This document shows positions 27,733 to 56,807 of a stretch of 64,000 nt of DNA, one piece after another. The stretch is taken from assembly GCF_001687335.1 (NCBI RefSeq), contig NZ_MAGO01000003.1, forward strand, positions 62,001 to 126,000. The letters run 5' to 3'. The stretch comes from Dissulfuribacter thermophilus (GTDB lineage Bacteria; Desulfobacterota; Dissulfuribacteria; Dissulfuribacterales; Dissulfuribacteraceae). The notes beneath the pieces were generated by a model. That model was not told the DNA's origin. It did not search any database and saw only the letters and a list, made by a program, of their open reading frames with translations. Position 1 is the first letter of the stretch. Each line of letters opens with the position of its first letter. A program made the translations under genes and the position numbers.

Positions 27733-27734
27733 AA

Positions 27735-27808
27735 CCTAAATCATGCACGGCAAAAGGGGGCAAATCCTCCTTGCATCTTAGGCAAACTCGCCAATTGCAG
27801 GATTTAGG
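27735..27808 (+). mobile_element. MITE-like element copy 1 (74 bp, TSD TAAAA)
   Basis: Ends CCTAAATCATGCA and TGCAGGATTTAGG are inverted repeats (12 of 13). Flanks are TAAAA (27730-27734) and TAAAA (27809-27813), a perfect 5-bp target duplication whose left copy contains the pilB stop codon. Inner sequence GGCAAAAGGGGGCAAA and GGCAAACTCGCCAATTGC recurs inverted in copy 3 (51754). No coding capacity. Confidence 0.85.
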
Positions 27809-45723: not shown

Positions 45724-46128
45724 TTAACTACCTTTCTCTATCAATTTATTGAGACTTATCTTTTTTAACTCTTCAGAGATTATTTTATTTATTTTTATCC
45801 ACACATCTTTTGTCTCACAGTGCGGGAAACGGTCACAGTTTGGGTCGTCCTCAGTACACGGTGTAAGGGCATCCCCTTCTGTAACCTTTAAAATGTCAAA
45901 TACACTTATATCTTCAGGGGGCCGAGCAAGCATGTGTCCGCCTTTAACGCCCCTTACACTCTTTATGAGTCCGGCCTCTCTGAGCGGCATTACTATCTGC
46001 TCGAGATACTTAAGAGGCAGATCTTGACGCTTTGCAATTTCATTCAATTGAAGGGGACCCTTTTCATAATTTTTTGCGAGCTCTACCATGAGCCGTGTAC
46101 CATATCTGGTCCTAGTAGTAAGTTTCAT
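45724..46128 (-). CDS. Rrf2-family regulator, IscR-like
   Basis: 134 residues. The winged helix-turn-helix ([49 protein letters not shown]) is typical of Rrf2. Three cysteines, Cys91, Cys98 and Cys104 ([14 protein letters not shown]), are spaced nearly as in IscR, so an Fe-S cluster sensor is likely. It starts three bases after the iscS-like stop. I infer that it binds the TAGGAT half-sites at the operon promoter (47592-47635) and possibly their copy at 54933-54974. Confidence 0.92.
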
Positions 46129-47560: not shown

Positions 47561-47591
47561 ATTTTTTCCTCCTAAATCCCTATTTTTTCAG

Positions 47592-47635
47592 TAGGATATT
47601 TTATGACATAAAATCCTATTGTCAAGGTAGGATTT
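47592..47635 (-). promoter_or_regulatory. isc operon promoter with three TAGGAT half-sites
   Basis: Minus strand: TTGACA (47625-47620), 16-base spacer, TAAAAT (47603-47598); start expected near 47591, a leader of about 30 bases. Half-sites TAGGAT occur at 47592-47597 and 47628-47633, and inverted (ATCCTA) at 47613-47618. AAATCCTA and TAGGATTT form a perfect 8-9-8 dyad over the -35; the other pair flanks the -10. This is a good repressor operator, most simply for the operon's own Rrf2 protein. Confidence 0.7.
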
Positions 47636-47777: not shown

Positions 47778-48551
47778 TCAGATCTTGGAAGGACCAAACT
47801 GCCTTACAAGGTCATGGTACTTGAGGAATTTACCTCCAAAAATATCTAGAGCACTTCCAACAGTAAAATCAATACGTCCCCTTCCTATCTCTTCGATCTC
47901 CTGAATATCTTTAATAGAACGAATGCCTCCAGCATAGGTTGTGGGGATTGGTGAGTATTTTCCTAAGATTTCCACAAGTTCCCTTTCTATGCCAGCACAT
48001 TTGCCCTCAACGTCTACTCCATGCACTAGGAACTCGAGACAAAATCCTCCAAGATATTCAAGGGTCTTGGCATCCACCTTAAGTTCTGTAAAACGTTGCC
48101 ACCTATCCGTTACCACATAGTAATTACCATCTTCACGCTTTCTACAGCTTAAATCCAGTACGAGTCTCTCTTTTCCAATGCCGGAAATTAACTTCTTTAA
48201 ATTCTCTTCATGGAATTTCCCATTGGAGAAACAAAAGGAGGTTACGATCACAGCCTCTGCTCCGGCATCAAGCCAGTAACTTGCATTTCCATCTGTTATT
48301 CCACCACCTATTTGCATACCACCGGGCCATGCACTAAGAGCCTCTAAAGCACTGGCCTCATTTCCAGGGCCAAGCATAATCACATGCCCACCTCTTAGCC
48401 CATCTCTTTTGAATAGCTCCGCGTAGTAGGAAGGTGGCTTTTCAGAAACAAAATTCTCTCTTGGGCCTATGCCTTCACTATCCCTTAGAGTTGATCCAAT
48501 GATCTGTTTTACCTTTCCCTCATGAAGGTCAATACAGGGTCTAAAGCGCAT
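47778..48551 (-). CDS. hisA: Eukaryotic-type HisA (phosphoribosyl-formimino-AICAR isomerase)
   Basis: Isomerises ProFAR to PRFAR in histidine synthesis. 257 residues that resemble yeast His6 rather than the usual bacterial HisA: FRPCIDLHEGKVKQIIG, NFVSEKPPSYYAELFKRD, GGHVIMLGPGNE, QIGGGITDGNASYWLDAGAEAVIVTS, VLDLSCRK, YAGGIRSIKDI and FTVGSALDIFGG. It starts one base after the cusA stop, at the end of the copper-efflux operon, away from any his cluster. Bacterial members of this subgroup are known; horizontal spread is likely. Confidence 0.88.
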   Translation of the reverse strand: MRFRPCIDLHEGKVKQIIGSTLRDSEGIGPRENFVSEKPPSYYAELFKRDGLRGGHVIMLGPGNEASALEALSAWPGGMQIGGGITDGNASYWLDAGAEAVIVTSFCFSNGKFHEENLKKLISGIGKERLVLDLSCRKREDGNYYVVTDRWQRFTELKVDAKTLEYLGGFCLEFLVHGVDVEGKCAGIERELVEILGKYSPIPTTYAGGIRSIKDIQEIEEIGRGRIDFTVGSALDIFGGKFLKYHDLVRQFGPSKI

Positions 48552-51500
48552 CTACATTTCCCCTTTCCTCTTAAGTGCCTCACGTCCCTCTAGTAATAGA
48601 CCATAAATGAGTGGGAGAACAAGCAATGAAAGGAGCGTGGTACTCACCATGCCGCCCACCATTGGTGCTGCAATGCGCTGCATAGTCTGTGAACCAGCCC
48701 CTCCTCCCATCATTATGGGTATCAATCCAAGGGTTATTGCTGTGGCCGTCATAACAATAGGCCTTACGCGCTCAGAAGTCCCCTTTAGCACAGCGGCCTT
48801 TATCTCGTCTCTGGAGAGAACTCCCCCTGATTTTGTCATCCTCATCTTTTCCACTTCATGATCGATAAAGGTCAGTACCAGAACACCAATCTCTGTTGCA
48901 ACCCCTGCAAGGGCAATGAATCCAACGGCAACAGCAACAGAAAAATTGTATCCAAGGACGTATATGAGCCATATCCCTCCAATGAGGGCAAAAGGAATAG
49001 AGGTCATCACTATAAGGGGCGCTGATATGTTCCTGAAGTTAAAGTAGAGAAGTAGAAAAATAAGTACGAGGGTTGCAGGGACTACGAACTTCAGCTTTTT
49101 CATTGCACGCTCCATATATTCAAACTGTCCTGACCAAGAGATAGCATAGTTAGGAGGAAGCTTAATGCGGCTTTGAATCAGTCCCTTGGCCTTTTCTACG
49201 AATCCACCTATGTCCGATGTGCTGATGTCAACGTAGACCCAGGCATTTGGCCTTGCATTTTCAGTCTTAATGACCGGAGCACCCCTTGTAAGGCTAATCT
49301 TTGCCACTTCCCCAAGAGGGATCTGGGCCCCAGTCGGAGTGGGCACGAGCACCCTTTTGATGGTATCAATAGAGGTCCTAAAGTCCCTCGGATACCTTAA
49401 GTTGACTGGATAGCGTTCCAGCCCCTCAACGGTCTCTGTTATCTTCATTCCTCCAATTGCACTGGTAATCACACTTTGAATGGTCTTCACAGAAAGCCCG
49501 TACTGGGCTGCCTTGTCTCTCAGTATCTCAATATCGAGAAAATACCCACCCTGGGCCCTATCGCCATAAGCAGAGATTGTCTCTGGCAACTCTTTCATAA
49601 GTGACTCGATCTTTTTTGACAGATCCTCAAGGACCCCTAGGTCAGGCCCACTTATCTTTATACCAATGGGCGTCTTTATACCTGTGGAGAGCATGTCTAT
49701 CCTGGTCTTGATTGGCATGGTCCACGTATTTGAAAGGCCAGGGATCTGGAGTTCCTTATCCATCTTTTTCATGACATCCTGGGTGGTCATGGAAGGATCT
49801 GGCCACTTTTCCCTTGGTTTCAACCTAACAACTGTCTCTATCATAGACAGTGGTGCTGGGTCAGTTGCGGTTTCAGCGCGTCCAACCTTGCCAAATACAC
49901 TCTCTACCTCTGGAAATTCTTTTAAAATCCTATCAGTCTGTTGAAGAAGCTCTTTTGCCTTTGTGATGGAAATCCCTGGGAAGGTTGTTGGCATATAGAG
50001 GATGTCACCTTCATCAAGGGGTGGCATAAATTCTGAACCTATGTGTCTTAAAGGATACATGGTGGCCCCAAGAAGGGTTAGAACTGCAAGTAAGATCATC
50101 CATCTGACCTTCATACATCCCTTGAGCACTGGCCGGTGAATGAAGTGAAGGAATCGATTCAGTGGATTTTTTGCCTCTTCAACAATTCTCCCCCTTATAA
50201 AAAAACCCATCAGTGCTGGGACGAGAGTGATTGCAAGGAGTGCGGCCCCTGCCATGGCATATGTCTTGGTAAATGCCAGGGGCTTAAAGAGCCTTCCCTC
50301 TTGGGCCTCAAGACTGAATATTGGCATAAATGAAAATGTTATTATAAGTAGCGAAAAGAAGAGCGCTGGCCCTACCTCTTTGGCGGCCTCCCCTATTACC
50401 TCCCAACGTCGTTTGGCGCTGACACCTGTCCCTTTTAGCATGCCATGGGCCTCAAGGCGTTTGTGGGCATTTTCTATCATGACTATTGCCCCATCCACCA
50501 TTGCACCTATCGCTATGGCGATACCCCCAAGGCTCATGATATTTGCATTTATTCCCTGGACCTTCATTATGATAAAGGCAAATAAGATCCCAAGGGGAAG
50601 AGTGAGTATAGCCACAAGGCTTGAACGAATGTGAAACAAAAAGACTACACATACAATACTGACGACAATACACTCTTCAATAAGCTTTTCCTTAAGGCTG
50701 GCTATGGCCCTCTCTATAAGAGAGCTTCTATCATAGACAGTCACGATCTCCACCCCTTCAGGTAGCCCAGGGGCGAGTTCCTTGAGTTTTTCTTTTACCT
50801 TCTCTATGGTCAAAAGGGCGTTTTCTCCAGTCCTCATGACGACTATACCACCAACTACCTCACCATCACCATTGAGATCCGCAAGGCCTCGCCTCAATTC
50901 CGGGCCAAGCCTTACATTTGCCACATCTTTCAAGAGAAGGGGAGTGCCGGAATCGGTAATCCTTAGAGGAATATTCTCAATGTCCTCTATGCCACGGATA
51001 TAACCCTTAGCCCTCACCATATACTCTGTCTCTGATAGCTCGATTAACCTTCCACCTGTATCCTGATTTGCAGCCTTGATGGCATCTCGTACAACAGTTA
51101 TGGGGATCTTGTAAAATGCAAGGGCATTGGGATCCACTACAATCTGATACTGCTTTACAAAGCCTCCAATCGAGGCAACCTCTGAGACACCAGGCACTGT
51201 CTGAAGCTGATATTTTAAGAACCAGTCCTGCAGAGATCTCAGCTCTGAAAGATCATGTTTTCCACTCCTGTCTACAAGGGCATATTCGTAGACCCATCCG
51301 ACCCCTGTGGCATCTGGTCCAAGGGTTGGATTTACTCCATCTGGGAGCCTATTTTTTACAAAATTTAAGGCCTCAAGCACCCTTGACCTTGCCCAATAAA
51401 GATCCGTACCATCTTCAAAGATGATATAGACAAAGGAGAGCCCGAAAAATGAATAGCCGCGCACCACCTCTGCCTTTGGGACAGATAGCATGGCAGTGGA

Positions 51501-51707
51501 AAGCGGATAAGTGACCTGGTCTTCTACAACCTGTGGGGCCTGCCCAGGATATTCTGTGAAAACAATAACCTGCGTATCAGACAGATCTGGTATTGCGTCA
51601 AGGGGAATAGTCTTGAGTGCCCAAATCCCTAGAAAGAATAAAAATGCCCCTCCAAGCAATACAAGGAACCTATCTCGGATGGATGCTGCTATAATTGCCT
51701 TAATCAT
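48552..51707 (-). CDS. cusA: CusA-type RND copper/silver efflux pump
   Basis: 1051 residues, the inner-membrane trimer of a CusCBA system. Twelve membrane helices are apparent. Heavy-metal RND signatures: IPLDAIPDLSDTQVIVFTEYPG, GAMVDGAIVMIENAHKRLE (Asp proton-relay region), FMPPLDEGDILYMPTTFPG and GSEFMPP; methionine content in the periplasmic part fits Cu/Ag. Downstream of cusB with a MITE-like element between, and followed directly by hisA. Substrate choice between Cu(I)/Ag(I) and divalent metals is inferred from the neighbours and the cusB tail. Confidence 0.93.
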   Translation of the reverse strand: MIKAIIAASIRDRFLVLLGGAFLFFLGIWALKTIPLDAIPDLSDTQVIVFTEYPGQAPQVVEDQVTYPLSTAMLSVPKAEVVRGYSFFGLSFVYIIFEDGTDLYWARSRVLEALNFVKNRLPDGVNPTLGPDATGVGWVYEYALVDRSGKHDLSELRSLQDWFLKYQLQTVPGVSEVASIGGFVKQYQIVVDPNALAFYKIPITVVRDAIKAANQDTGGRLIELSETEYMVRAKGYIRGIEDIENIPLRITDSGTPLLLKDVANVRLGPELRRGLADLNGDGEVVGGIVVMRTGENALLTIEKVKEKLKELAPGLPEGVEIVTVYDRSSLIERAIASLKEKLIEECIVVSIVCVVFLFHIRSSLVAILTLPLGILFAFIIMKVQGINANIMSLGGIAIAIGAMVDGAIVMIENAHKRLEAHGMLKGTGVSAKRRWEVIGEAAKEVGPALFFSLLIITFSFMPIFSLEAQEGRLFKPLAFTKTYAMAGAALLAITLVPALMGFFIRGRIVEEAKNPLNRFLHFIHRPVLKGCMKVRWMILLAVLTLLGATMYPLRHIGSEFMPPLDEGDILYMPTTFPGISITKAKELLQQTDRILKEFPEVESVFGKVGRAETATDPAPLSMIETVVRLKPREKWPDPSMTTQDVMKKMDKELQIPGLSNTWTMPIKTRIDMLSTGIKTPIGIKISGPDLGVLEDLSKKIESLMKELPETISAYGDRAQGGYFLDIEILRDKAAQYGLSVKTIQSVITSAIGGMKITETVEGLERYPVNLRYPRDFRTSIDTIKRVLVPTPTGAQIPLGEVAKISLTRGAPVIKTENARPNAWVYVDISTSDIGGFVEKAKGLIQSRIKLPPNYAISWSGQFEYMERAMKKLKFVVPATLVLIFLLLYFNFRNISAPLIVMTSIPFALIGGIWLIYVLGYNFSVAVAVGFIALAGVATEIGVLVLTFIDHEVEKMRMTKSGGVLSRDEIKAAVLKGTSERVRPIVMTATAITLGLIPIMMGGGAGSQTMQRIAAPMVGGMVSTTLLSLLVLPLIYGLLLEGREALKRKGEM

Positions 51708-51753: not shown

Positions 51754-51814
51754 CCTAAATCCTGCAATTGACGAGTTTGCCCTTTTTGCCCCCTTTTGCC
51801 GTGCAGGATTTAGG
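51754..51814 (-). mobile_element. MITE-like element copy 3 (61 bp, imperfect TSD TGAAG/TGAAC)
   Basis: Ends CCTAAATCCTGCA and TGCAGGATTTAGG are perfectly inverted. Flanks TGAAG (51749-51753) and TGAAC (51815-51819) agree at four of five. The interior is the inverse complement of copy 1 with a 13-base shorter middle. It sits in the cusB-cusA spacer and would form a hairpin in the operon mRNA. Confidence 0.8.
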
Positions 51815-51822
51815 TGAACGAT

Positions 51823-53160
51823 TTAATCCTTCATATTCGAGGCATGATTTTTCATGTGATGGTGCATTTTCATATTCCCAGCCTTTTTATTGGCAGTGGG
51901 CTCCATCATTTTTAAGGCGGCCTCCTTTAGGCTGGACTCAGAATCTATGAGAAATTGTCCAGACACCACCACCTCTTCTCCATGGGAGAGACCTTTAAGA
52001 ACTTCAACAAGGTCATTTGCCTCAAGCCCCAGGCTAACAGCTCTTGGCTCAAACTTACCTGGCTCTCTCATTACAAAAACGTGTTCGTGTTTTCCTGTCC
52101 TCAACACCGCCTCTTTGGGTATTACGAGGACCTCCCCATGTGCAGCAGAATGGACTGTTACCGTGGCATACATACCAGGTCTTATAGTAAGATCCGGGTT
52201 TTTTAGTATTATCCTTGCATTGACAGTCCGGGTCTTCTTATCCACAACTGGATAAATATAATCAATTTTACCCTCAAATTTCCCTTTATTTATACCTTTT
52301 ATCTCAATTAGCGCCCTATTTCCCACTTTTATCCATGGAAGTTCTTCTTCAAAAAATGACGCTAGCACCCACACTGTCCTCAAGTCCGCTATCTCATAGA
52401 GGATGGTCTTGGGCGTAATGAAGGACTTGGGCCTTACCCTGATCTTGGTCACGATGCCATCTGCTGGGGCTTCAATTGGGACGACCTTTTTAGTAATCTT
52501 TGTCTTCTTTAAGTCTTCAATGAACCAATCAGGAAGGCCAAATAGCTCAAGCCTCTTTTTAGAGGCCATCAAAAGTGCCTTTGCATCCTTTATGACCTCT
52601 TTACTTCCCTCTGAGACAGCGCTCAAATTCCTCAGAGCCATTATGAATTCTGCCTCTGCGGTTACTATTTCCGGTGAATAGACGTATAAGAGGACTTCTC
52701 CCTTTTTTACCCAGTCTCCAGTCCTTTTAACCTTTATATCCTCGACCCATCCATTAAACTTCGCATGGACCATAAAAAGACCATCTTCATCAGTAGAGAC
52801 TATGCCATAGGTAGTGATCTCCTTTGAAAGCTCCTTCATGCTCACCTTTTGTGTACGGACTCCCATTTTCTGCATGGTTACAGGGTCGATGACCACGGTA
52901 CCTGGTGTGGTGCTGGTCCCCCCTTGGAGATCTTCAGGATACACAGGGATGTAATCCATACCCATCTCATCTTTTGCTGGCACAGGAGAGGTTATAGCAG
53001 GATTCATTGGATTCCTGTAAAAAAGAGGCTTTCTTTCCCCTACTGTGGGGGAAGTGGATGTAGCTTTTTGTTCCACAAAAAAGTAGCCTCTTCCTAAATA
53101 CCCCGCCAATAAGCCAAGAGAAAAAACTACAATAAATAGAACTGTCCTAAAGGCCATCAT
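51823..53160 (-). CDS. cusB: CusB-type periplasmic adaptor with metal-binding ends
   Basis: 445 residues: N-terminal anchor (about 5-25), then the metal-binding motif YRNPMNPAITSPVPAKDEMGMDYIPVY (residues about 48-75) seen in CusB-like adaptors, then the hairpin/lipoyl/barrel domains (VHAKFNGWVEDIKVKRTGDWVKKG, IEAPADGIVTKIRVRPKSFI). The C-terminal tail KKAGNMKMHHHMKNHASNM is rich in His and Met and should bind Cu/Ag. It overlaps cusC by four bases. Confidence 0.93.
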   Translation of the reverse strand: MMAFRTVLFIVVFSLGLLAGYLGRGYFFVEQKATSTSPTVGERKPLFYRNPMNPAITSPVPAKDEMGMDYIPVYPEDLQGGTSTTPGTVVIDPVTMQKMGVRTQKVSMKELSKEITTYGIVSTDEDGLFMVHAKFNGWVEDIKVKRTGDWVKKGEVLLYVYSPEIVTAEAEFIMALRNLSAVSEGSKEVIKDAKALLMASKKRLELFGLPDWFIEDLKKTKITKKVVPIEAPADGIVTKIRVRPKSFITPKTILYEIADLRTVWVLASFFEEELPWIKVGNRALIEIKGINKGKFEGKIDYIYPVVDKKTRTVNARIILKNPDLTIRPGMYATVTVHSAAHGEVLVIPKEAVLRTGKHEHVFVMREPGKFEPRAVSLGLEANDLVEVLKGLSHGEEVVVSGQFLIDSESSLKEAALKMMEPTANKKAGNMKMHHHMKNHASNMKD

Positions 53161-54443
53161 TTTTCCCCTTCAAGATCCTTCCCCACAATGGCCTCAAGCC
53201 TGGAGAGGACTTTTTTTGCATTTGATATTATCCCTATATGGTCTCCTTCAAACCTATAGAGCATAAGCTCTGCCTTAAGTAGCCCAAGGATGTCTGCTCT
53301 GCCGGCAGCATAAGAATCCTTTAGCGCAAGAAGTGTTGCTCTGGCCTTTGGAATGATAGTCTTTCTATAAAGAGTATCTTGCTGTAAAAGACCATTATAC
53401 AGAGAAAGTTCACTTCCAATCTTTCCATCTATATTGTCCTTTTCAGCCTTTATGGCGCTCTCTAAGGCCTCGACTGCCCTTAAGGCAGATATAATCTCCT
53501 GGTTTTGCTTCTGTTTAAAAAAAAGAGGGATATTCATGGTGACCAACAAGGAGCCAAAGTCTGCCCTGTCATCTCCATTGGGGTTTTCACCGAATCTCTT
53601 CCCATACGCTCCAGTAATTGCAAAATCTGGATACAGATCCCTTTTTTTTAGGTCATAGGTACGTCTTTTTATTGCTAGTAAAGTCTCCTTTTCTTTGAGC
53701 GTGGGATTTATGTTCATGGCTTCACCAACGAGGAGACCCTGGTCTTCAAGGGGTAGTAGGCCCGTTTCAATGTCTTCTTTTAAATCTATGCATTCGTGAG
53801 ATACACTCATCAGAGATATAAGTTTTTTTTCAACCTCATGGTACCTTGCCTCCAGGTCTATTTTTTCCTTTAAAACTCTGGTGAGCTCCAGCTGTGAAAG
53901 GAGTACGTCTGATTGAAGGCCCTTACCAGTTTCATATCGAGATTGAGTGAGTTCAATTATCTTCCTTAGGGTTTTCTCCTCTTTAAGTAGTATATCGAAG
54001 GTATTTTTTATCCTGAATAGTTCCCACCAAAGGCCCTTTACCTCTGCTTTAACCTTTAGAGTCTCTGCCCTTTCCCTCCATTGGGCCCTTAAGGCCTCAA
54101 GCTTCTGAATAGACCTCTTTATTGAGAGCTTGCCAGGAAAGGGTATCTTTTGGGTGAGCTTTATCTGGGTTTGAGTCATTGCCTCCTGGTCAAAAGAAAA
54201 GGTATCCATTGGTAGATTTAAGATACCTATTCCAAGTTGAGGGTCTGGGAGGGCACCAGCTGGACCAATGCGTGCCCTTACACTCTCAGCCTCTCGTCTT
54301 AAAGCAGAAAGGGTCGGATTCCTCTCTATTGCAATCTCTGCTGCATCCTCTGGACCAAGAAGCAGGCACTGGTTTGATGCCCCGACTGAAAAAGCCGGGA
54401 GAATTGAAAAAAGGAGAATTAAAAAAAGTAAATTAATACGCAT
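53157..54443 (-). CDS. cusC: CusC/TolC-type outer-membrane efflux protein
   Basis: 428 residues: signal peptide MRINLLFLILLFSILPAFSVGAS, then two TolC-type repeats of long helices (IAIERNPTLSALRREAESVRARIG, AMNINPTLKEKETLLAIKRRTYDL) forming the channel. I use the ATG at 54443, with GGAAGGG nine bases upstream. That start codon and ribosome site lie within the 3' end of a duplicated cysC remnant, whose stop is at 54433, so cusC originally overlapped a sat-cysC gene. It ends with a four-base overlap with cusB. Confidence 0.93.
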   Translation of the reverse strand: MRINLLFLILLFSILPAFSVGASNQCLLLGPEDAAEIAIERNPTLSALRREAESVRARIGPAGALPDPQLGIGILNLPMDTFSFDQEAMTQTQIKLTQKIPFPGKLSIKRSIQKLEALRAQWRERAETLKVKAEVKGLWWELFRIKNTFDILLKEEKTLRKIIELTQSRYETGKGLQSDVLLSQLELTRVLKEKIDLEARYHEVEKKLISLMSVSHECIDLKEDIETGLLPLEDQGLLVGEAMNINPTLKEKETLLAIKRRTYDLKKRDLYPDFAITGAYGKRFGENPNGDDRADFGSLLVTMNIPLFFKQKQNQEIISALRAVEALESAIKAEKDNIDGKIGSELSLYNGLLQQDTLYRKTIIPKARATLLALKDSYAAGRADILGLLKAELMLYRFEGDHIGIISNAKKVLSRLEAIVGKDLEGEK

Positions 54444-54902
54444 AAATTGCCCTTCCAAGATAACCTGTTTTTTTCAAATACGACAATATCTCCTAAACTG
54501 CCTCCTCAGGTTCCATATCTGTTGTGTCTGTTACCACCTCTGAGTCCTTAGGAGGTTCATCCCAGATTATGCACTTCAAATGCCTGAGGAAAGTAATTTT
54601 TAAGAATTATTGCATAGTTAGCATGCATCTTTTCCCGTTGTGCCTTCACCCAAAAGGTGAAATTCAATCTGTGATAAATCCTCAGGCATTTGAAGCCGCA
54701 AGGGGCTCGCAATTTTACTGAATCTGCTTTGTTGTCGGGCACTTGAAGTACCAAAGTACGTCTGCGTGCCCTCCGCCTCGCATCTTCGGCAAACTTGCGA
54801 GCTGCATAATCCGGGTTCATATGGACCATCATTTTTTTCGTACCAAAAAGGGCCAAGGCATAAAGGCTCTTTCTGTCGCGTTCCATGAATATATCTAGAT
54901 GT
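54433..54902 (-). pseudogene. Duplicated 3' remnant of cysC, interrupted by a MITE
   Basis: 54433-54560 and 54816-54902 match the 3' end of the intact sat-cysC gene (55077-55300) with scattered differences, for instance ATGGAACGCGACAGAAAGAG encoding MERDRK and the final LGRAIYAY region. The remnant is disrupted by a 255-bp element and a deletion of roughly 15 bases. An open frame (54557-54886) through remnant and element is accidental. It carries the ribosome site and start codon of cusC at its end. Confidence 0.85.
54561..54815 (-). mobile_element. MITE-like element copy 4 (255 bp, TSD TTCAT) inside the cysC remnant
   Basis: Ends CCCAGATTATGCA and TGCATAATCCGGG are inverted (12 of 13), flanked by TTCAT at 54556-54560 and 54816-54820. 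The uninterrupted paralogue at 55199-55203 (TTCGT) shows the empty site, so insertion and duplication of the target are directly visible. Internal ACTTCAAATGCCTGAGGA pairs with TCCTCAGGCATTTGAAG, and TTTGTTGTCGGGCACTTGAA is shared with copy 2 and the palindrome at 35558. Confidence 0.9.
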
Positions 54903-54914
54903 GCTTGTATTCCT

Positions 54915-54985
54915 TAATCCCTATTTTTCTAGTAGGAAATTTTATAACACCAAATCCTATTGTCAAGGTAAGATTTTTTTAAAAA
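54915..54985 (-). promoter_or_regulatory. Second copy of the isc promoter/operator, facing cusCBA
   Basis: This stretch aligns with 47572-47642 at roughly 80% identity. Minus strand TTGACA (54966-54961), 16-base spacer, TAAAAT (54944-54939) are identical in sequence and spacing to the isc promoter. Half-sites: ATCCTA (54954-54959) intact, the others changed to TAGGAA (54933) and TAAGAT (54969). It points toward cusC, 490 bases away, through the cysC remnant and MITE copy 4. Confidence 0.75.
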
Positions 54986-54993
54986 CGGTAATG

Positions 54994-55074
54994 AGCTTTT
55001 TTCAACTTCATGGTACCTTGGCTACAGGTCTATTTTTCTCTTTAAAACTCTGGTGAGTTCCAATGGTGAAAGGA
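54994..55074 (-). pseudogene. Internal fragment of a second cusC copy
   Basis: About 80 bases match 53821-53902 inside the intact cusC (shared words TCATGGTACCTTG, TTTAAAACTCTGGTGAG) with several substitutions. It directly abuts the stop codon of the intact sat-cysC gene. Together with the cysC remnant it suggests a decayed tandem duplication of a sat-cysC/cusC unit. No coding function. Confidence 0.8.
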
Positions 55075-55076
55075 AA

Positions 55077-56807
55077 TTAATACGCATATATTGCCCGTCC
55101 AAGATAACCTGTTTTTTTCAAATACGACAATATCTCCTGAGCCGCCTCTTCAGGTTCCATATCTGTTGTGTCTATTACTACTTCTGGGTCCTTAGGAGGT
55201 TCGTAGGGATCATCAATACCAGTTACTCCCTTCTTTTTACCAGAAAGGGCCAGGGCATAAAGGCCTTTTCTATCGCGTTCCATGCATACGTCTAGAGGAG
55301 TGGCTACATATACTTCTATGTAGCCTCCATACCTAGATATGAGCTCCCTATTATATCGCCTTGAACGCTCATAGGGTGCAATGGGTGCACAGATTGCAAT
55401 ACCACCATTCTTTGTAATCTCACTGGCCACAAAACCGATGCGTATCACATTGATGTGCCTGTGTTCCTTTGAAAAACCAAGTTCACTAGACAAATGGCGT
55501 CTCACTATGTCTCCATCAAGCAATGTAACTGGCCTATCACCCATTTCCAAAAACTTTGTGTAGAGAATTCGTGCGAGAGTGGATTTCCCTGCCCCGGAAA
55601 GACCTGTGAAGAATATGGTAAAACCCTGTTTGGACCTTGGCGGATAAGCACGTCTCAGTTCCTCCACCACCTCTTTGGGCGAAAACCATTCCGGTATTTC
55701 CAGGCCGAATTCAAGCCTTCTTCTGAGCTCTTTGGCAGATAGCCTGCGTGGAGTACAATCCTTGGGGCACTGGTCCTCCCTTAGATATTGCCCCAACTCC
55801 TCCACATAAACCATGCGCTCAAAGGGCACTGCCTCGATGCCTACTTCCTTTTCGTGTTGTCTTACGAACTCTAGCGCCGAATATCGTGGATAATACGGGG
55901 GGCGCTTTGTGGCAGTAAAGGGGTCTGCATGATTCGGAGTAACCATGAAATGAGTGCACCCATAATTTTTGTTGATAATGGCCTGTAGGAGTGCTTCCCT
56001 AGGTCCTGCCATTCTCATAGCCATAGGAAGAAGGTTTAAAATAGCTGTTTCCGGCGGATAGGTCTTTAATATGGCCTGATAACACCTAATCCTTGAATAG
56101 TACTCGATGTCTCCAGGGCTTGTTGGCCCAACTATAGGATGTAAGAGAATATTGGCCCCTATTTCGTCTGCAGCCTTAAGGGTAACAGCCTTGTGGGCGT
56201 TGTGAAGGGGACGCCTAGTTTGAAAAGCCAGTATACGGTGCCATCCAACCTTCTTAAACCACTCCCTCATCTCCTTTGGGGTCCGCCGCAGCATCCTATA
56301 GTCATAATGGATGGGGAGGGAAATCCCCTTCACCTTACCTCCTATATAATACTCCCCCTTTTCCTCAAAAAGCTTGACTACCCCTGGGTGTTCATCCTCA
56401 TCTGTCTGAAAGATTTCTCTGGCCTCACGCCTTTTGTCTGGCTTCCACAGGTCCTCCACCTCCATAACCCCCAGCATGAAGCCTTCCTGATCCCTTAGGG
56501 CCACCTCTTCCCCAGGGCTTATTCTATTGGCAAGCTCTTCACTAATTCCCAATGTCACTGGGATGGGCCAGATTAATCCCTGAGAGAGTCTAAGATCATT
56601 TAAGACCTCCTCATAATCGTCCCTTGTCATGAAACCCTCAAGAGGCGAGTAGGCACCGATCATGAGTAGTTCTAGGTCAAATTCCTCTGAGGCAGTCAAA
56701 AAAACGCTTTTTAGGTCCACGGACCTGGCCTTCAAGTCCTTTGCCTCATCTTCGCTCACCAAAAGGTCCTTTAATGCGCCCCCATAGGGCTCAGTCAGTC
56801 GTGGCAT
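55077..56807 (-). CDS. Fused ATP sulfurylase / APS kinase
   Basis: Bifunctional Sat-CysC, 576 residues. The Sat part (about 1-390) makes adenylyl sulfate; its motif QTRNPxHxAH reads QTRRPLHNAH, AGPREALLQAIINKNYG is conserved, but the usual GRDHAG loop reads TPNHAD. The CysC part (about 395-576) has the P-loop FTGLSGAGKSTLA, DGDIVRRHLSSELGFS and ICAPIAPYERSRRYNR, making PAPS. Fusion to APS kinase suggests a PAPS or assimilatory role rather than the dissimilatory Sat. It follows nagZ after four bases. Confidence 0.92.
   Translation of the reverse strand: MPRLTEPYGGALKDLLVSEDEAKDLKARSVDLKSVFLTASEEFDLELLMIGAYSPLEGFMTRDDYEEVLNDLRLSQGLIWPIPVTLGISEELANRISPGEEVALRDQEGFMLGVMEVEDLWKPDKRREAREIFQTDEDEHPGVVKLFEEKGEYYIGGKVKGISLPIHYDYRMLRRTPKEMREWFKKVGWHRILAFQTRRPLHNAHKAVTLKAADEIGANILLHPIVGPTSPGDIEYYSRIRCYQAILKTYPPETAILNLLPMAMRMAGPREALLQAIINKNYGCTHFMVTPNHADPFTATKRPPYYPRYSALEFVRQHEKEVGIEAVPFERMVYVEELGQYLREDQCPKDCTPRRLSAKELRRRLEFGLEIPEWFSPKEVVEELRRAYPPRSKQGFTIFFTGLSGAGKSTLARILYTKFLEMGDRPVTLLDGDIVRRHLSSELGFSKEHRHINVIRIGFVASEITKNGGIAICAPIAPYERSRRYNRELISRYGGYIEVYVATPLDVCMERDRKGLYALALSGKKKGVTGIDDPYEPPKDPEVVIDTTDMEPEEAAQEILSYLKKTGYLGRAIYAY

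Follow-up and report, generated by a model that had tools for sequence, protein, structure and literature searches.

A copied isc promoter faces the cusCBA-hisA operon of Dissulfuribacter thermophilus: a possible natural case of promoter capture by tandem duplication

Introduction

Copper damages Fe-S clusters. In E. coli, the efflux operon CusCFBA is controlled by CusRS, and nfuA of Pseudomonas aeruginosa is induced by CuCl2 and belongs to the genes that IscR regulates (PMC6084964). Our literature search, with most subscription papers outside its reach, brought up no cus operon described as a direct target of an Fe-S regulator. Laboratory evolution has established that tandem duplication can lead to promoter capture (PMC11111574; PMC4718724). 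In the rnk-citT rearrangement of the Lenski experiment, as in duplication-activated transferred genes (PMC11111574), a tandem duplication joined the promoter of a neighbour 5' of downstream genes.

Dissulfuribacter thermophilus S69 comes from a deep-sea hydrothermal chimney (PMC5276818). We analyzed a 64,000-nucleotide stretch of a genome of this species, almost certainly that of S69 (hereafter the window), for which a first-pass annotation had proposed that a duplicate of the isc promoter/operator faces copper-efflux genes. Like the laboratory cases, this locus has a neighbour's promoter joined 5' of downstream genes, but the scar is natural, old and mostly deleted rather than caught under selection. 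Moreover, the promoter copied here comes with a complete operator pair and could therefore carry a whole regulatory input. With IscR-type autoregulated isc promoters it shares an rrf2 gene in the isc operon, palindromes overlapping the promoter and three conserved cysteines in the regulator; it differs from them in that TCCTA-N9-TAGGA palindromes are paired 35-36 bp apart, that the protein falls under the IscR equivalog cut-off and that a second site faces cusCBA. The efflux operon is of the CusCBA type, as in E. coli, but no cusRS or cusF was identified adjacent to it, and its nearest promoter is the isc promoter copy. All comparisons with other genomes set one Dissulfuribacter genome against relatives belonging to other genera.

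Results

The isc promoter is present in two copies

The isc operon (tusA-iscS-rrf2-iscU-fdx) is preceded by its original promoter/operator, Pisc (47570..47635, minus strand), which is conserved in a relative of the same family (G002) and in one of the same order (G004). A second copy, Pisc' (54911..54976, minus strand), is identical to it at 58 of 66 positions, ungapped and on the same strand. The proposed duplicate is thereby confirmed as genuine, its identity being 88% where the first-pass annotation had given about 80%. The E-value of the match was 3e-18 when part of the window was compared with itself and 7e-17 when the whole genome was searched, and the best score reached anywhere in the window by dinucleotide shuffles of Pisc' (n = 200) was 38/66. 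A weak likeness to Pisc extends upstream of the match, where CCGTTTTTAAAAAAATC in the copy is nearer to the isc promoter of G002, of a related genus, than to the present Pisc. An assembly artefact is unlikely, because the copies differ by 8-14%.

As had been annotated, TTGACA-N16-TAAAAT is the same in both copies. In Pisc' it occupies 54939..54966 on the minus strand, with a predicted start at about 54932, and it does point toward cusC, i.e., into cusCBA-hisA. No other promoter-like site was found in 54300-55300. A promoter model gave only two strong places in the 2.52-Mb genome, Pisc (69.3 bits, 6.6e-19) and Pisc' (68.1 bits, 1.6e-18); Pisc and Pisc' are themselves among the four sequences that make up the model, and the informative part is that there is no third site. 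In G002 and G004, the model found one strong site each, at isc, and it detected no Pisc-like copy at cus operons in 45 relatives.

Operator palindromes and regulator

Pisc contains two palindromes of the pattern TCCTA-N9-TAGGR, spaced by 36 bp, which lie over the -35 and over the predicted start (TCCTA-N9-TAGGA at 47614-47632 and TCCTA-N9-TAGGG at 47578-47596, both on the minus strand). The pair recurs with a spacing of 35 bp before tusA-iscS-rrf2-iscU-fdx in G002 and G004. Its conservation alongside the rrf2 gene in these two other genera, at 35-36 bp in all three genomes, makes it a credible operator, and the best reading is that it is the putative operator for the isc-encoded Rrf2 protein.

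Of the two palindromes in Pisc', the downstream one, at the predicted start (54919..54937, minus strand; TCCTA-N9-TAGGG), has an intact core. The upstream one, over the -35 (54955..54973, minus strand), reads TCTTA-N9-TAGGA, with a single derived change from TCCTA to TCTTA, and retains one perfect half-site; three of the four half-sites are thus intact. The change from ATCCTA to TTCCTA lies outside the 5-base core, and T is also found there in related promoters. The earlier count of one intact and two altered TAGGAT half-sites is literally right but misleading, since conservation applies to the unit TCCTA-N9-TAGG, of which there are two.

The Rrf2-family protein encoded in the isc operon (45724..46128, minus strand) has the Pfam Rrf2 domain (1.6e-38). 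It carries the IscR-type cysteines Cys91, Cys98 and Cys104, which are invariant in the six Rrf2 homologues compared, and cluster binding is predicted. The only curated cut-off that it reaches is that of the Rrf2 superfamily; at 113 bits it lies below that of the IscR equivalog TIGR02010 (207.55 bits), and it is therefore named IscR-like only.

Genome-wide, ATCCTA-N9-TAGGAT with up to two mismatches occurred 94 times versus 96 in the control, so without enrichment, and TCCTA-N9-TAGGR occurred in about 10 places, Pisc and Pisc' included, which is not above control. With neither palindrome pattern above control and only two strong places in the promoter model, no wider regulon was found. More distant isc operons that include an rrf2 orthologue (G017 and G051) have other palindromes in the promoter region, as judged by eye, e.g., CTATA-N9-TATAG (L114 4473-4640 and L118 5166-5326), which suggests that operator and regulator diverged together.

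Anatomy of the scar

The first-pass annotation was right on the duplicated promoter and missed what surrounds it, namely the scar of an apparent tandem duplication and a 255-bp MITE in the leader. The whole of 54425-55076, save some 11-14 bases where Pisc' meets the cysC copy, consists of copies of neighbouring DNA and this one MITE. Read 5' to 3' on the minus strand, the order is complete sat-cysC, a cusC scrap, Pisc', a cysC 3' end split by the MITE, and intact cusCBA-hisA. The copies of neighbouring DNA have the same orientation throughout and stand in the order predicted for a tandem duplication. Pisc' adjoins the duplicated 3' part of cysC, so that the donor promoter comes first, then the junction and then the copied segment, and the donor Pisc is found downstream of cusCBA-hisA on the same strand, as in promoter capture.

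The intact sat-cysC gene (sulfate adenylyltransferase/APS kinase; 55077..56807, minus strand) is the source of the duplicated 3' end. The cusC scrap (54990..55076, minus strand) is the cusC start ATGCGTATTAATTT, running from 55087 and overlapping the cysC stop, fused to an internal cusC piece, with a stop codon; 54997-55074 matches cusC 53825-53902 at 88%, and about 520 bases are skipped after the start. On the upstream side of the MITE, the cysC copy covers 54821..54899 (minus strand), of which 54841-54899 matches 55238-55296 at 86%. The copied 3' end (54425..54558, minus strand) matches 55069-55202 at 92%, has a premature stop and runs into the cusC start. Both cysC copies terminate in one and the same overlap of cysC stop and cusC start, ATGCGTATTAA, and the scrap is therefore the start of a former cusC copy.

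The scar pieces are nearer to the genome's own genes than to those of G002, the cusC scrap matching at 69/78 versus 45/78 and the cysC copy at 51/59 versus 41/59; the event is therefore younger than the split between the genera. Adjacent cysC and cusC were not seen in relatives: in G002, other genes precede cusC, and the contig carrying sat-cysC stops inside cysC. No other comparable set of copies was found within the window, and the idea that intergenic DNA is a general patchwork was rejected on this ground. Separately, the window contains an inverted pair of similar segments (51754-51815 and 27734-27808; 76% over 75 bp), unrelated to the isc promoter.

The MITE-like repeat (54561..54815) is inserted in the cysC copy, with 13-bp inverted ends, CCC(A/G)GATTATGCA, and a target duplication, TTCAT, at 54556-54560 and 54816-54820. 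Its family counts about 25 longer copies in the genome, plus fragments, and its 5-bp target duplications are often ATTAT/ATAAT. The MITE had no match in Rfam, and the leader contained no known RNA family. The predicted leader is about 490 nt long, untranslated and strongly folded (z -5.7) because of the MITE, which could lower expression.

Genes of the efflux locus

The cus operon (all minus strand) comprises cusC, a TolC-type outer-membrane factor (53157..54443), whose ATG (54443) shares bases with the stop of the cysC copy; cusB, a CusB-like membrane-fusion protein (51823..53160), whose best match is PRK09783 (CusB), below the cut-off at 185 versus 390; cusA, a CusA/CzcA-family RND pump (48552..51707; TIGR00914, 1263 bits, over cut-off); and at the end hisA (47778..48551; TIGR02129, the eukaryote-type equivalog, 362 bits, over cut-off). 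The locus thus has all three components of an efflux system of the CusA/CzcA heavy-metal group, the RND pump, its adaptor and the outer-membrane factor. The window also encodes, nearby, a P-type ATPase of the copper type (TIGR01511) and a multicopper oxidase of the CopA type (TIGR01480); Cu+/Ag+ is a candidate substrate of the pump. CsoR was not found in the genome, nor was any CueR above cut-off. Elsewhere in the genome, two CusRS-like two-component systems of the CusRS/CzcRS group lie in tandem (L177 5649-9791, contig C4 of this genome, G000); neither response regulator reaches the CusR-group cut-off, one falling short by only 3 bits. They adjoin an RND-type efflux cluster, the RND gene of which is apparently broken by a frame change.

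Discussion

We lean, with slightly more than an even chance, toward the account in which Pisc' is a promoter captured through tandem duplication that now drives cusCBA-hisA under Rrf2 control. Ancestrally, sat-cysC, cusCBA, hisA and the isc operon would have followed one another on the minus strand, with cysC overlapping the start of cusC. A segment of about 7.7 kb, from inside cysC (~55296) to just past the isc promoter (~47570), would have been duplicated in tandem, so bringing the isc promoter of the upstream copy directly before the second cysC 3' end and cusC. Two deletions would then have removed the upstream copy of cusCBA-hisA, sparing the promoter and about 90 bp of cusC, and the MITE would have entered the cysC remnant later. 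Transcription would start at about 54932 and, after the leader of about 490 nt, reach cusCBA-hisA, besides any read-through from sat-cysC. The Fe-S form of the isc-encoded Rrf2 protein would repress Pisc' through both palindromes and release it on loss of the cluster, e.g., under copper. We infer transcription, Rrf2 binding, the copper response and a benefit from sequence; Fe-S control of copper efflux, the link put forward in the first-pass annotation, is plausible, and that annotation's reading as a whole finds partial support. That the duplication produced a working link, putting cusCBA under the Fe-S sensor, with the capture retained as deletions removed the remainder of the duplicate, is a more tentative proposal, to which we give somewhat less than an even chance.

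The history of the scar could also be shorter. Template switching during repair, passing from cusC to Pisc to cysC in one step, would give the same end product, and the same possible function, without a full duplication followed by deletions. The short collinear pieces and abrupt joints fit such an event. Against it, the scrap retains an original cusC start beside cysC and is then missing about 520 bases, a layout that follows directly from duplication and later deletion, and we regard the single step as the unlikely course.

What Pisc' does at present may be less than promoter capture implies. It could be irrelevant and drifting like the scraps around it, cusCBA transcripts then coming from an unrecognised promoter or from sat-cysC by read-through. 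We found no terminator in the interval from sat-cysC to cusC, and cus may therefore not need Pisc'; in addition, the hairpin of the MITE sits between Pisc' and cusC. Compared with the dead DNA around it, Pisc' shows no clear difference in divergence: it differs from Pisc at 8/66 positions, and the dead cysC pieces and the cusC scrap differ from the functional genes at 19/193 and 9/78. Polarized with outgroups over 61 positions, about 3-4 of the changes are derived in Pisc' and 3 in Pisc. About 5 would be expected in Pisc' if it had changed as fast as the dead cysC copy (~8%), and its 3-4 are therefore compatible with neutral drift. The distribution of the differences argues the other way, as the core promoter and three of the four half-sites are unchanged: a difference is seen at just 1 of the 31 positions in the promoter and half-sites, versus 7 of the 35 others (p = 0.04, a value that depends on the core positions chosen by us). 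The model score of Pisc', nearly that of Pisc, likewise speaks against decay. Overall, we hold a merely decaying promoter to be somewhat unlikely, though it is the rival that we take most seriously. Pisc' could also be active for cus without useful control by Rrf2, made a constitutive or weak promoter by its damaged upstream palindrome or by the leader. The -35 and -10 are intact and the derived change falls in the upstream palindrome overlapping the -35, as such a promoter would have it. Yet the palindrome at the predicted start, the downstream one, is undamaged, and in the altered one a perfect half-site survives, and we find this the least probable of these alternatives.

Returning to promoter capture, the scar is well preserved, testable and moderately surprising. 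Most of what is known of promoter capture via tandem duplication comes from laboratory evolution, and this locus would be a natural example, in which the order of the rewiring can be traced because the joints, the deleted copy and the later insertion of a mobile element are still readable. A single regulator with an old and a captured site offers an easily testable case. If the account is true, the regulator, which otherwise has a single strong site, would gain cus as its second target, and if Pisc' works, copper efflux in this bacterium would come directly under Fe-S cluster status, without a dedicated copper sensor.
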